From: an uncultured Carboxylicivirga sp.
Lineage (GTDB): Bacteria; Bacteroidota; Bacteroidia; Bacteroidales; Marinilabiliaceae
DNA: 64,000 nt
Assembly (NCBI GenBank): GCA_947491945.1
Contig: CANLLN010000002.1
Location: 124,001 to 188,000 of the forward strand
Reading direction: 5' to 3'
Shown here: positions 39,593 through 44,474 of the stretch, piece after piece
Layout: every line of letters begins with the position of its first letter
Position numbering within the stretch: the first letter of the stretch is position 1
The notes under the pieces: model-generated
The model's input: only the letters and a program-made list of their open reading frames with translations
Databases searched by the model: none
Told to the model about the DNA's origin: nothing
Position numbers and translations under genes: made by a program

Positions 39593-40612
39593 ATGAGTGT
39601 GATAATATTGGGAATCGAGTCGTCGTGCGACGATACTTCAGCCGCCGTTTTTAAAGATGATGTGATCCTTTCCAATCGCGTTGCCAATCAGGATGTTCAT
39701 AAAGCCTACGGTGGTGTGGTGCCCGAGCTGGCCTCGCGCGCACATCAGCAAAATATCATTCCGGTAGTTGAGCAAGCCATCCATGATGCCGGCATACAGC
39801 GCAGCGACATCGATGCGGTGGCTTTCACCCGTGGTCCGGGTCTTATGGGCTCTCTGCTGGTAGGTACTTCCTTTGCCAAAGGCTTTGCCCTGGCCAACAA
39901 ACTACCCCTTATCGAGGTGAATCACCTACATGCCCATGTGCTTGCTCATTTTATTAAGGAAGATGAGAATGATACTGACCAACCTCAGTTTCCCTTTCTT
40001 TGCCTTTTGGTATCGGGGGGTAACAGTCAAATTATTGTAGTACGCGATCACCTGGACATGGAAATCATTGGCCAGACCATTGATGATGCGGCTGGTGAAG
40101 CCTTCGATAAATGTGCCAAAATAATGGGACTCCCTTATCCGGGTGGTCCACTTATCGACAAGCTGGCCCGGGAAGGTAATCCTGAAGCTTTTCGCTTTAG
40201 TAAACCCCGAATTAAGGATTACGACTATAGCTTCAGCGGACTGAAAACATCGGTACTATATTTTCTTCGAGATGAATTAAAGAAAAACCCTGATTTTATT
40301 GAGGAGAACAAAGCCGACATCTGTGCATCCCTCCAAAAAACCATTGTCGACATATTAATGGATAAGCTTATTAAAGCGGCAGAAGACACCGGCATTACTC
40401 AGGTGGCACTGGCCGGTGGCGTATCGGCCAATTCAGGTTTGCGCGACCGACTGGGCGCCCTGGCTACCGAGAAAAAATGGGAAACCTTTATTCCCAAGTT
40501 TGCGTACACCACCGATAATGCCGCCATGATTGCCATTAACGGCTATTATAAATATTTAAAAAGTGAATTTATAGGACAAGATGCGGCACCCTTTGCCCGA
40601 ACTACCTTTTAA
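39593..40612 (+). CDS. tsaD: tRNA N6-adenosine threonylcarbamoyltransferase
   Basis: The 339-residue ASKHA-fold enzyme has the diagnostic GIESSCDDTSAAV start, the metal-binding His pair in VNHLHAHVLAHF, LVSGGNSQI and GVSANSGLRDRL. It transfers the threonylcarbamoyl group to A37 of ANN-decoding tRNAs together with TsaB and TsaE, which are not in the window. Standard length. It is divergent from the TamB-like gene. A weak hairpin with a short T-run at 40646-40676 separates it from the peptide cassette. Confidence 0.97.
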   Translation: MSVIILGIESSCDDTSAAVFKDDVILSNRVANQDVHKAYGGVVPELASRAHQQNIIPVVEQAIHDAGIQRSDIDAVAFTRGPGLMGSLLVGTSFAKGFALANKLPLIEVNHLHAHVLAHFIKEDENDTDQPQFPFLCLLVSGGNSQIIVVRDHLDMEIIGQTIDDAAGEAFDKCAKIMGLPYPGGPLIDKLAREGNPEAFRFSKPRIKDYDYSFSGLKTSVLYFLRDELKKNPDFIEENKADICASLQKTIVDILMDKLIKAAEDTGITQVALAGGVSANSGLRDRLGALATEKKWETFIPKFAYTTDNAAMIAINGYYKYLKSEFIGQDAAPFARTTF

Positions 40613-40740: not shown

Positions 40741-41025
40741 GTGGGAACGAAACAATACATAAAAAAGAACGGCTTTGTGGAAAAACACATCGGGGACGAA
40801 ACCGTTGTGGTACCGCTGGTAGGCAGCGTGGCACAAATGGAAAAGGTGTTTTCACTCAATGAAGTAGGTTCGTTAATATACAGTAATTTAAGTGCTGCAA
40901 AAACCAACGATGAACTGTTGACATTAGTACTCAATACTTTTGACGTAAGCCCACAAACAGCCGCAGCAGACCTTAAACATTTTTTACAGGAAGCGGTTAA
41001 TAAAGGGATTATTACAGTACTTTAA
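40741..41025 (+). CDS. PqqD-like peptide-recognition protein (RRE)
   Basis: The protein of about 94 residues has the PqqD pattern: an N-terminal three-strand sheet (GFVEKHIGDETVVVPLVG), the FSLNEVGSLIYSNLS segment that matches the family's LNExG motif, and a helical C-terminus ending in ALKxKGII-like AVNKGIITVL. PqqD folds bind the leader of precursor peptides and present them to modifying enzymes. GTG 40741 is preferred because a -7 box precedes it and AAGGA lies 5 nt upstream. It is the first gene of a five-gene same-strand block, 20 bp before the small peptide gene. Confidence 0.85.
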   Translation: MGTKQYIKKNGFVEKHIGDETVVVPLVGSVAQMEKVFSLNEVGSLIYSNLSAAKTNDELLTLVLNTFDVSPQTAAADLKHFLQEAVNKGIITVL

Positions 41026-41045
41026 AAACGGGGAAGCCAATAAGA

Positions 41046-41279
41046 ATGAGGATTAAGAAAAAATATATAAAACCGGCAATTGAGGAGCATTTTTTAGATA
41101 TGGCAATCAATTTAGGAATTCAATCAGAACAACCACCGACACCTCCTGTAGAGGTTGGACCAGGATCACAATCAGTCCAATTCGAGCAACCCTACCTGAA
41201 ATCAGCCCCCAATTACTCCAACCCGGCACAACAGCCCAATCCCTTTGGTGGTGATTCGCCTGATTACTCAAACATGTAG
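41046..41279 (+). CDS. Small peptide, probable precursor of the PqqD/kinase cassette
   Basis: The 77-residue peptide starts with the basic MRIKKKYIKPAIEE, which contains YIKPAI, a match to the YxxPxL/I leader motif recognised by PqqD-type proteins in lasso-peptide and related pathways. A short amphipathic helix follows (LDMAINLGIQ), then a Pro/Ser/Asn/Tyr-rich tail (GPGSQS, APNYSNPAQQPNPF, SPDYSNM) without any Cys, Lys after residue 53, or signal peptide. Ser and Tyr in the tail are possible kinase targets. It sits between the PqqD-like and kinase-like genes. No family name is known to me; precursor status is inferred from motif and context. Confidence 0.65.
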   Translation: MRIKKKYIKPAIEEHFLDMAINLGIQSEQPPTPPVEVGPGSQSVQFEQPYLKSAPNYSNPAQQPNPFGGDSPDYSNM

Positions 41280-41282
41280 TGG

Positions 41283-42185
41283 ATGAGCAATACACAACCA
41301 AACAAAAAATATACAATAGGGGGCATAAGATTTAACACAAACATCTTATGCCCCCTTTTTGAGTTGGATACAAAGGCCAGCAGCTACCCCTTTGCCGTAA
41401 GCAATAGCACAGAAGCCGGAGATTGGAACATGAGCATAGATGCAGCCTCGGTGATTGAGCGGCAGCACCATACAAATTGCTTTTCCGGCGTAGAAGAATT
41501 TGACAATGAGCTGCCCTATAAATGGTCAGTCGTAAAGCAGGGAAGCCACGAAGGAATTTTGGTGGAGTTTGAACAGGACGAAGGCATCCGCGAGGCCCTG
41601 GCCATCATCAATACAGCGGAACGGCAAGTTACCATTCAGCTTTGCCTGCACAAGCAACAAGCCCTGCTCATCGATCCTTTTATGCACCCCATCGGCATCC
41701 TCATACTACAATACATCGTACACTACTACGGCGGCTTTGTTATTCATGCATCCACGGTTAGCTATCATGGCAAAGGCTATCTGTTTACGGCCGTGTCGGG
41801 CACCGGCAAATCCACCATGGCAGGTTTATGGCAGGCATATGGCGCCACCATCATTAATGATGACCGCCTGATTGTGCTACCCGAAGGCAATGGGTTCTGT
41901 GCTTATAACACGCCTATGCCCTATTACCAGGATGTAAGCAAAAAAGTGCCCCTGCACAAGGCTTTTCTCATTGATCAATCGCCCACTAACTTTCTGGACA
42001 AGCAAACTGTTTTAAAGGGTACCCTGGGGCTTTTAGGCAATTGCATGCAGTTTCAGTACAACGAGGCACAGGTGCAGCAACGCCTCAACACCCTGCATAA
42101 ACTAACGGAGCAAATTGGCGTATACCGCTGTGGCTTTAAACCCGATGAGGAGATTGTGAAACTAATACTCCGTGAACTTGGTTAA
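41283..42185 (+). CDS. HPr-kinase-like protein
   Basis: The 300-residue protein has a variable N-terminal domain and a C-terminal HPr-kinase-like P-loop domain: FVIHASTVSYHGKGYLF, Walker A SGTGKST (residues 172-178) and the INDDRL acidic motif (191-196). Members next to PqqD and small peptides include kinases that phosphorylate the tail of lasso-peptide precursors, for example in the paeninodin pathway. ATG 41283 lies 3 bp after the peptide stop. Codons 13-25 coincide with a 13-base perfect terminator-like hairpin (41319-41355), yet the encoded strand (YTIGGIRFNT) fits the family start, so the hairpin is really inside the gene. The target residue is unknown. Confidence 0.82.
   Translation: MSNTQPNKKYTIGGIRFNTNILCPLFELDTKASSYPFAVSNSTEAGDWNMSIDAASVIERQHHTNCFSGVEEFDNELPYKWSVVKQGSHEGILVEFEQDEGIREALAIINTAERQVTIQLCLHKQQALLIDPFMHPIGILILQYIVHYYGGFVIHASTVSYHGKGYLFTAVSGTGKSTMAGLWQAYGATIINDDRLIVLPEGNGFCAYNTPMPYYQDVSKKVPLHKAFLIDQSPTNFLDKQTVLKGTLGLLGNCMQFQYNEAQVQQRLNTLHKLTEQIGVYRCGFKPDEEIVKLILRELG
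41318..41360 (+). terminator. Strong terminator-like hairpin embedded in the start of the kinase gene
   Basis: GGGGGCATAAGAT (41319-41331) and ATCTTATGCCCCC (41343-41355) pair perfectly over 13 bases (14 with A41318-T41356), with an 11-base loop, and TTTTT follows at 41356-41360. It has all features of an intrinsic terminator, but begins 36 bases after the kinase ATG. It would favour short transcripts that contain only the PqqD-like and peptide genes. Confidence 0.85.
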
Positions 42186-42612
42186 GCAGCAACTACAAAG
42201 CGCCCTGATGCAACTCCTGAAAGAAGGACAGCGCGTGGCCGTACCCGCCCATGGAATGAGTATGTACCCCTTGTTGCGCCCGGGCGATACACTGCTGGTT
42301 GAACCCCGGCCTCCACTGATCGGCGACATTGGGGTATTTTACCACAATGGCCTCCTGGTGGCGCATCGCTTGCTTCATCAAAAAGGCAACATCTACTATT
42401 TTAAGGGCGATGGCCTGATAATGCCTGATGCTCCCGTTGAGTCCGGCAAAGTATTGGGCACTGTAACACAATGCACACGCAAAAACAGGGCAATCAGCTG
42501 TAATACATTTTCCTTTCGCCTTTTTAAGCGATTTATTCCCTATACACACGCCTTCAGCGGACGCTTGTTTTTCTATCTGGGCAGAATCAGTCTACGGCTT
42601 CAAAATAAATAA
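42172..42612 (+). CDS. S24/S26-type peptidase (signal-peptidase-like, Ser/His arrangement)
   Basis: The 146-residue protein has the signal-peptidase/LexA box GMSMYPLLRPGD with the expected nucleophile Ser30, then GDIGVFYHNGLLVAHRLLH with His65 where bacterial enzymes carry Lys, as in archaeal/ER-type S26B peptidases. YYFKGDGLIM continues the fold. There is no N-terminal membrane anchor; a C-terminal hydrophobic stretch (FIPYTHAFSGRLFFYLG) is weak. GTG 42172 overlaps the kinase stop by 14 bp; ATG 42208 is an alternative. By position it may cut the peptide leader. That role is inferred. Confidence 0.78.
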   Translation: MNLVKQQLQSALMQLLKEGQRVAVPAHGMSMYPLLRPGDTLLVEPRPPLIGDIGVFYHNGLLVAHRLLHQKGNIYYFKGDGLIMPDAPVESGKVLGTVTQCTRKNRAISCNTFSFRLFKRFIPYTHAFSGRLFFYLGRISLRLQNK

Positions 42613-42632
42613 ACCGGGCATTGCTAATGAGC

Positions 42633-42648
42633 CCTTGCATATGCAAGG
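42633..42648. promoter_or_regulatory. Perfect 16-bp palindrome before the ABC exporter gene
   Basis: CCTTGCATATGCAAGG is fully self-complementary without a loop, which fits a dimeric protein-binding site better than an RNA hairpin. A near-consensus -7 box TACTTTAG (42661-42668) follows, so the exporter may have its own regulated promoter. Confidence 0.5.
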
Positions 42649-42692
42649 CAACATTTTTATTACTTTAGTGCCATAATCACACGTTTCCTCGA

Positions 42693-44474
42693 ATGAACAT
42701 CATCAATAAACTATCACTGAGCCATCTCCTCGAGTCCCTGCGCATTGTTTATCACAGTTCGAAAAAGTGGACACTCATCAATGCTGCCGTCACCGTGGTG
42801 CGGGGTATCGTGCCGCTGCTACTGCTCTATGTGGTAAAGCAACTGATCGATGTGGTCAGCCATCAGCTTACGGGAACTAATATTGATGCTCAGCAAATAT
42901 ATACCGCCATTGGATTAACAGCCGCCTTCTTTTTGCTCAATGCTATCAGCGGATCGGTGGCTGCCCTGGTGCGTGAACGACAGAGTCATTTTGTCAACGA
43001 CTATGTGCAAAACATCATCCACAAAAAAACCATACACCTGGCCTACCAATACTTTGAAGATGCTAATTTTCAGGATACCTTTTACCGGGCCTTGAACGAT
43101 GCAAGCTACCGGCCGGCGCGCGTATTTTACAACTTGCTACAAACCCTACAAAGCAGTCTCACCCTCATTTTGGTGGTACTGGTACTTACCAACATACACT
43201 GGGGCATGGTACCCTTGTTGGTCATTTCCGGTGCTCCTATTTTTTACTACCGCATTAGCTACACGCGCAAGCTCTACCGCTACCGACGAGAACATACGGA
43301 GGATGAGCGGCGCGTGCACTACTTCAACCGCCTGTTAACGGCTAAAGATTTTGCCAAGGAACTTCGTGTTTTTAATCTCGGTGAAACCTTTAAAAATGAG
43401 TATGAAACCTTTAAAAACGAGCTGCGTGAGAAGCAATGGTCGCTCTCCAAAACCAAAACACTGAGTGAGATATTCGTACAGCTCTTTGCCACCCTCATTC
43501 TGCTCTTCATCATTGGTTTTGTGGTGATGCAGGCCGTTAAGGGGGAAATCAGCAGCGGCTCCATGGCCATGTATTTCCTGGCACTGCAAAGGGCCTATGC
43601 CGTGCTGCAGGGACTCCTGAGTGGACTGAGTTCTCTTTATGAAGATAACCTCTTCCTCAAGAATTTCTTCGCCTTCAGAACCATGGCCCGCAGTGAAGAA
43701 AAACTTCAGGCACCCTTCCCCACACCATTGTGCGATGGCATTAGTTTCGACAAGGTGAGCTTTAAGTATCCCAACACCGAAAAGTGGGTGTTAAAAGATA
43801 TCAGTCTGCACATACCAAAGGGAAAAACAATTGCTCTGGTGGGGCGTAACGGATGCGGGAAAACCACCCTGGTGAAATTGCTGTGCGGACTATATCAACC
43901 CAACGAAGGTCAAATAAAAGCAGATCAACAAGATTGGTCAAGCATTTCGCGGGAGGCACTGGCCAGGCATATTTCCGTGATTTTTCAGGATTTTATGCTG
44001 TACAATGTCAGCGCGCAGGACAATGTACGCTACGGCAATACACGCCGCAATAAAGAAGAGCGCTTTATCACCGAGGCAGCCGATAAAGCCGGTATCCACC
44101 ACCTGTTTTCTGATCTGCCCCAAGGCTACAACACCCCTTTGGGCACGCTTTTTAAGGGCAGTCAGATGCTTAGCCGGGGCGAATGGCAGCGCACAGCCCT
44201 TGCTCGTTCCTTTTACAATACCGATGCCCAGCTGATCATTCTGGATGAACCCACCAGCTCACTGGACGCCTTCACCGAGGCACGGCTGATTGAGCACTTT
44301 AAAGACATTACAAAAGACAAAACCGCCATTATAGTGAGCCATCGTCTATCCACCATCAAGCTAGCTGATATTGTAGTGGTAATGCAGGATGCAGGTATTG
44401 CAGAAATAGGCACACCCGATGCACTCATGGCTCAAAAAGGCATGTACTATAATATGATTGAGTCACTGAAGTAA
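42693..44474 (+). CDS. ABC exporter (membrane domain fused to ATPase)
   Basis: The 593-residue half-transporter has six membrane helices (about 25-310) and an ATPase domain from about 340: Walker A GRNGCGKTT (about 383), a variant signature LSRGEWQR (about 492) instead of LSGGQ, and Walker B IILDEPTSSLDA (about 515), then the SHRLST switch. It should act as a homodimer pumping a lipid or peptide out of the cytoplasm. It lacks an N-terminal C39 peptidase domain, so leader removal would need another enzyme, such as the S26-like protein upstream. An 80-bp gap with a palindrome separates it from that gene. Confidence 0.9.
   Translation: MNIINKLSLSHLLESLRIVYHSSKKWTLINAAVTVVRGIVPLLLLYVVKQLIDVVSHQLTGTNIDAQQIYTAIGLTAAFFLLNAISGSVAALVRERQSHFVNDYVQNIIHKKTIHLAYQYFEDANFQDTFYRALNDASYRPARVFYNLLQTLQSSLTLILVVLVLTNIHWGMVPLLVISGAPIFYYRISYTRKLYRYRREHTEDERRVHYFNRLLTAKDFAKELRVFNLGETFKNEYETFKNELREKQWSLSKTKTLSEIFVQLFATLILLFIIGFVVMQAVKGEISSGSMAMYFLALQRAYAVLQGLLSGLSSLYEDNLFLKNFFAFRTMARSEEKLQAPFPTPLCDGISFDKVSFKYPNTEKWVLKDISLHIPKGKTIALVGRNGCGKTTLVKLLCGLYQPNEGQIKADQQDWSSISREALARHISVIFQDFMLYNVSAQDNVRYGNTRRNKEERFITEAADKAGIHHLFSDLPQGYNTPLGTLFKGSQMLSRGEWQRTALARSFYNTDAQLIILDEPTSSLDAFTEARLIEHFKDITKDKTAIIVSHRLSTIKLADIVVVMQDAGIAEIGTPDALMAQKGMYYNMIESLK

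Follow-up and report, generated by a model that had tools for sequence, protein, structure and literature searches.

The window examined here, a stretch of 64,000 nucleotides (G000:C2:124001-188000, G000 being the genome to which it belongs), holds on its forward strand a five-gene cassette which encodes a PqqD-type leader binder, a 77-amino acid peptide with a YIKPAI motif, an HprK-like kinase, a Ser/His S26-type peptidase and a MsbA-like exporter. An initial annotation had described these genes as a compact same-strand cassette, and this cassette was confirmed as real. In the current work its products are named by their likeness to the components of the Linear Polyphosphorylated Peptides (LPPs) described by Popov et al. 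in May 2026, being LppB, LppA, LppK, LppS, LppD and LppN (PMC13381572). Unless a locus handle is given, coordinates are those of the window.

Genes and motifs of the cassette

The first gene (40741..41025, forward strand, as are all features of the cassette) encodes an LppB-like, PqqD-type discrete recognition element (RRE) for ribosomally synthesized and post-translationally modified peptides (RiPPs), which scores over the Pfam cut-off for PqqD and whose profile matches LppB (9x8z) at 4.2e-7 and TbiB1 at 1.2e-9. The leader-binding residues N33, D70 and F74 of LppB align with N40, D77 and F81 of the window protein; N40 and F81 are invariant and D77 is present in at least 90% of 28 sequences, so that a leader pocket of the LppB type is present. 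Apparent PqqD fusions at L066 and L258 were rejected as artefacts of choosing the first start codon.

This gene is followed by that of the LppA-like precursor peptide PEP1 (41046..41279), whose reading frame is conserved among relatives in the family, an outcome in favour of the initial annotation. Its leader motif YIKPAI (Tyr7 to Ile12; 41064..41081) fits the pattern YxxPx[VIL], and its C-terminal tail PFGGDSPDYSNM (41241..41276) holds a PFGGxxP motif. Both leader and tail are common to 26 aligned family peptides, with P66, F67, G68, G69 and P72 each occurring in at least 90% of these sequences. Between the two lies Ser27 (codon at 41124..41126), located 20 residues after the leader tyrosine (Tyr+20).

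The LppK-like kinase (41283..42185) has homologues in the family genomes and scores below the Pfam cut-off, while its profile matches HprK (1jb1) with the catalytic residues aligned; a search of PDB sequences with the window kinase alone as query returned nothing useful. Its catalytic residues are invariant in 31 of 31 sequences, including S172, G173, G175, K176, S177 and T178 of the Walker A motif SGTGKSTM (41796..41819) and an Asn-Asp-Asp motif (41856..41864) of which the Asp-Asp aligns with that of HprK, and the fold predicted by modelling is that of the HprK/PEPCK group.

The fourth gene (42172..42612) encodes an LppS-like peptidase of the S26 type (SEC11/SipW-like) which scores over the cut-off for Peptidase_S24, matches SEC11A at 3.2e-6 and retains S30, H65, D80 and D86 in 18 of 18 sequences; it is predicted to be a Ser/His/Asp leader peptidase resembling SpI. 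The last gene (42693..44474) encodes an LppD-like ABC exporter (ABC_tran 2.7e-32, ABC_membrane 1.7e-10), for which the top NCBIfam model is MsbA at 7e-79, below the cut-off of that model. At another locus (L132:6675-8927) a Peptidase_S24 domain and an ABC exporter are fused in one protein, possibly representing a peptidase-containing exporter that does without the usual C39 domain.

Distribution of the cassette and of its precursor peptides

Within the family (Marinilabiliaceae) the kinase was found in 69 of 71 genomes, in 68 of them as a single match, and the corresponding numbers were 68 for the peptidase, 67 for PqqD and 63 for the peptide, the latter being based on a profile built from the small peptide itself. 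The gene for TsaD (39593..40612, forward strand; Pfam TsaD 3.9e-96), a housekeeping gene upstream of the cassette and outside the system, served as synteny anchor: PqqD follows it on the same strand and within 1.5 kb in 33 of the 40 family regions that were fetched. The distances between kinases and those between TsaD proteins are correlated (rho 0.71 over 34 members, a value as high being reached in none of 999 permutations) and therefore fit vertical descent. The cassette is a near-universal, mostly single-copy and largely syntenic core locus of the Marinilabiliaceae.

Kinase and peptide also occur together beyond the family. In a sample of 295 genomes of the order, with strong kinase matches defined as those below 1e-30 and the table entered by hand from kinase E-values and the peptide list, 23 genomes have both, four the peptide alone (G192, G231, G304 and G358), three the kinase alone (G107, G181 and G120) and 265 neither (Fisher p 4e-27); when the family is removed, the respective numbers are 19, 4, 3 and 265 (p 4e-23). 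Across 395 genomes of a phylum sample the kinase was found below 1e-50 in three (G000, G383 and G473), which are exactly the three with the peptide, and 12 genomes with weaker kinase matches have no peptide. Two observations concern the edges of this distribution. In genus g20 (for example L070 and L071) the kinase is kept and the peptide was undetected in seven genomes, where peptides may be diverged or lost; genome G023 has no detectable kinase, PqqD or peptidase and still encodes, at L210, a peptide with Ser at Tyr+20.

A total of 89 family peptides were compared, 31 located at cassettes and 58 elsewhere. The residues Y, P and D belonged to the pattern used for the peptide search, the Ser/Thr at Tyr+20 did not. 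Spacing from the leader tyrosine is fixed: Y at +0 and P at +3 occur in all 89 peptides, D at +11 in 88, and Ser or Thr at +20 in all 89 (58 Ser and 31 Thr), with Tyr+5 being I or L in 79. Among the 51 offsets compared, Tyr+20 is the sole position occupied by Ser or Thr throughout, the combined frequency of these residues elsewhere being 14.5%; the runner-up is Tyr+15 with 70% (60 S, 9 C, 5 N, 5 V, 3 L, 2 I, 2 T, 2 A and 1 M), and Tyr+18 carries Ser or Thr in just 4%. The invariant residue is specified by different codon types (34 TCN, 31 ACN and 24 AGY). It was likewise found in 45 of 47 distinct peptides outside the family, a set from which twelve loci had been excluded as family members after sorting by hand from titles and handles; the exceptions are one Glu and one truncated start. 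Judged from these alignments, Tyr+20 (Ser27 in the window) is the best candidate phosphoacceptor. LppS and LppB together cleave the LPP precursor after Thr-1, which corresponds to Tyr+15 (PMC13381572), and by analogy the peptidase of the cassette would be expected to cleave near Tyr+15.

Peptides beside T9SS genes and the proposed pathway

The peptide profile matches at least twice in 53 of the 71 family genomes, and the second peptide of G000 (on contig C24) lies approximately 25 bases behind the gene of a 782-amino acid protein that has a Big_5 domain and carries a signal of the type IX secretion system (T9SS). Just upstream of this large gene and the second peptide, a SAM-dependent methyltransferase gene is located (L152:6451-7176); open reading frames (ORFs) of approximately 235 to 250 amino acids with a similar start occupy the same spot at L154-L157 and L161-L164, as judged by eye only.

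The 58 non-cassette peptide loci had been picked by hand from 141 family matches, mostly the top ones, and 41 of them have a same-strand ORF of at least 500 amino acids within 150 nt upstream. The T9SS signal (TIGR04183) was matched at 0.01 by 36 of these 41 upstream proteins, one of the others being purF-like; for comparison, the whole of G000 yields 63 such matches. A position directly behind a large gene depends on the tail type of the peptide, being seen for 39 of 43 NPF-type, 1 of 13 PFGG-type and 1 of 2 other peptides, and giant ORFs (at least 1,574 amino acids) lie near several PFGG-type peptides and family cassettes. At 9 of 13 loci compared the large ORFs match one C-terminal profile, while at L153 and L170 the ORF extends past the end of the fetched sequence; this profile in turn matches the adhesins RemA at 2.1e-43 and RemZ at 1.2e-35. 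Beyond the family, the upstream gene could be viewed for 18 peptides and is an ORF matching the profile for 13 of them, as it is for 8 of 13 in another set; L254, L256 and L263 each hold a single run that starts with the profile-matching adhesin-type ORF and goes on with the genes for PqqD, the peptide, the kinase, the peptidase and the exporter. The adjacency recurs in another class of the phylum (G383 and G473).

When 227 loci are taken together, a peptide lies within 1.5 kb of 82 of 98 proteins with the C-terminal module, a proportion that is biased upward because these loci were mostly fetched for holding a peptide or a kinase. As a counter-sample, nine T9SS-signal proteins of G000 located away from peptides and picked for their size were inspected, and none has the module. 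The idea that this module is an exclusive peptide-partner domain was dropped, RemA and RemZ of Flavobacterium carrying it as well.

Considering these observations, the cassette probably represents a phosphopeptide pathway which, in Bacteroidota, resembles that of LPPs and serves T9SS surface proteins. The PqqD protein would bind the peptide by its YxxPxI leader, the HprK-like kinase would add one or more phosphates at the invariant Ser/Thr (Ser27 in the window), the Ser/His S26-type peptidase would cut off the leader, and the MsbA-like exporter would carry the product out of the cytoplasm. Precursors from other loci would be processed by this enzyme set as well; the genes of most of those examined directly follow genes of large T9SS proteins related to RemA and RemZ, and the exported phosphopeptide would then act with its partner protein at the cell surface. 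The interpretation of the initial annotation, in which the kinase may be the main modifying enzyme behind an exported phosphopeptide, is thereby supported in part: this role of the kinase, on a linear peptide, is the best reading and matches the biochemistry reported for LPPs (PMC13381572). Gene content, conservation, synteny, the invariant Ser/Thr, the adjacency to T9SS genes and the co-occurrence of peptide and kinase are seen in the sequences themselves, while phosphorylation, cleavage, export and action on the adhesin are predicted steps. To that proposal are now added a core family locus, further substrates beside T9SS adhesin genes and one invariant Ser/Thr.

Several points weigh against this pathway. 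At a threshold of 0.001 no kinase was found in any of the four genomes of the order sample that have the peptide alone, or in the family members G023 and G032, although some of these misses may be gaps because G304 and G032 are less than 80% complete; conversely, the kinase occurs without a detected peptide in eight family genomes, namely G069 and the seven from genus g20. LppK phosphorylates Ser and not Thr, whereas Thr occupies 31 of the 89 sites. The full-length kinase model also fits phosphoenolpyruvate (PEP) carboxykinases, and the fold alone is therefore insufficient to call the protein a peptide kinase. In 15 of the 40 fetched family regions no exporter was detected, some of the regions being cut by contig ends. 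As to the adhesin link, PFGG-type peptides, the kind encoded in the window, lie directly behind a large gene at just the one non-cassette locus mentioned above; no window protein has an adhesin module and no T9SS gene lies beside the window peptide, which is for that reason the weakest case; and the module is not exclusive to peptide partners, because RemA and RemZ of Flavobacterium have the same C-terminal region.

A more specific version of the pathway is advanced tentatively, its chances being modest: each of several large T9SS adhesins would have its own partner peptide, one shared set of kinase, RRE and peptidase would polyphosphorylate and release all of them, and the phosphopeptide would bind or be attached to its adhesin at the surface, a tag for metal binding or cross-linking being one example, in what would be a general pathway of Bacteroidota.

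It is unlikely that the product is instead a plain LPP-like secreted peptide, acting as signal or antagonist, with the T9SS adjacency reflecting shared regulation or translation coupling and involving no contact with the adhesin. The composition of the cassette, which equals that of LPPs, and the fact that the window peptide is not beside a T9SS gene fit such a product, but the adjacency recurs in G383 and G473 and in full runs with an adhesin-type gene, and the conservation of leader and PFGG tail in 26 family peptides is unlike the variable C termini of LPPs.

Rather improbable is a chaperone-like or regulatory partner, intracellular or periplasmic, which would help the large adhesin through the T9SS, be switched by phosphorylation and yield no surface product. 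A peptide gene that follows the large gene immediately, in most listed cases by no more than 50 nt, would suit this role, as would the exporter not always being found near the locus; however, the kinase has both a peptidase gene and an exporter gene alongside it in the window, 26 of the 40 family regions have the former and 25 the latter, and at L132 the two are one protein. 

Improbable above all is that the Ser/Thr at Tyr+20 serves in recognition by the leader peptidase, like the Thr of lasso and LPP leaders, with the kinase-like enzyme modifying another residue or performing other chemistry: a conserved Thr does occupy or adjoin the cleavage site of LppA and, in the accounts of them covered here, that of lasso leaders, and the fit to PEP carboxykinases would allow it, but signal-peptidase-like sites accept Ala or Gly too, none of the 89 family peptides has either at Tyr+20, and Tyr+15, the LPP cleavage position and here mostly Ser, is the better candidate for cleavage.

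Comparison with known systems

Phosphorylated lasso peptides of the paeninodin type share with the cassette a YxxP or WxxP leader, a PqqD-like B1 protein, an HprK-like kinase and sometimes an NTP transferase (PMC7533575, PMC13381572). A lasso peptide was rejected here: the B2 protease family (PF13471) is unmatched in the whole of G000 at 0.001, and no macrolactam (Asn-synthetase-like) cyclase is found among the identified window neighbours, the genome as such not having been searched for PF00733. The initial annotation had reported no cyclase, transglutaminase-type protease or radical SAM enzyme next to the cassette, and this holds for the seven further window neighbours that were identified in a search which supported the labels TamB, sigma and SmpB. 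It also holds among the matches listed for the 40 family regions, where none of these maturase families is among the 13 Pfam families matched at least twice by 56 unlabelled kinase neighbours (the scan gave 78 families, of which 25 were listed; 53 of the 65 families with a single match were unlisted). No RNA feature was retained in the window, which gave no Rfam match at gathering score and no tRNA.

SynChlorMet and HprK-related kinase A/B systems also pair an HprK-like kinase with a PqqD-like partner. The corresponding NCBIfam models (ScmC/ScmD, HprK_rel_A/B) were rejected, all matches being far below the cut-offs (19.2 of 200, 27.5 of 200 and 26 of 125 bits for the kinase; 15.5 of 35 and 25.4 of 100 bits for PqqD).

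On the T9SS side, the large proteins linked to peptides resemble RemA and RemZ of Flavobacterium johnsoniae (8gl6, 8gl8; PMC10994853) in their C-terminal region. The parts of that report covered here mention no such cassette, and the F. johnsoniae genome itself was not searched for one. Among the PMC literature searched, no paper was found that joins PqqD or RiPPs with the T9SS in such a way, so that the suggested connection of RiPP-type tailoring with type IX secretion was not found in print. The association by position of many peptides with T9SS adhesin-type genes, seen within the class of the family as well as in two genomes from a different class, leads to a concrete hypothesis of function, and with it come one predicted acceptor residue and numerous natural substrates; if the shared-pathway reading is true, it would provide the first function for LPP-like peptides.

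The closest relatives in composition are the LPPs, with which the cassette shares a discrete RRE, a YxxPx[VIL] leader, an HprK-like kinase, a Ser/His leader peptidase of the SpI/S26 type, a MsbA-like exporter and the lack of a macrolactam cyclase. The new peptide class considered by the initial annotation is by composition not new, because LPPs were already described in May 2026 (PMC13381572). The LPP kinase adds several phosphates to Ser3 (Tyr+18), an S3T variant being unphosphorylated (PMC13381572), while the candidate acceptor of the cassette is a Ser or Thr at Tyr+20. The full LPP consensus YxxPxVLxHQxIxFETxxS is not matched: hardly anything after YxxPx[ILV] is common to both, an Asp at +11 and I-S-L at +14 to +16 being found here. 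Since leader motif and acceptor position differ, the system is termed LPP-like and is not filed as an LPP. An NTP transferase (LppN) is absent from the cassette and from the identified window neighbours, the rest of the genome not having been searched; in relatives from the Flavobacteriales/Crocinitomicaceae such an enzyme (NTP_transf_5, PF14907) lies beside the kinase (L151:7569-8666, L148:2700-3806 and, on the other strand, L125:2152-3375).

In Bacilli, LPPs have a patchy distribution, for which at least 61 events of gain or loss are described, and highly variable precursor C termini, and they are called restricted to Bacillota, with their role left open (PMC13381572); the word 'Bacteroid' is absent from the main text of that report. 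In contrast, an LPP-equivalent gene set is a stable, near-universal and largely syntenic part of a Bacteroidota family, and its further precursors are encoded in trans beside T9SS genes.

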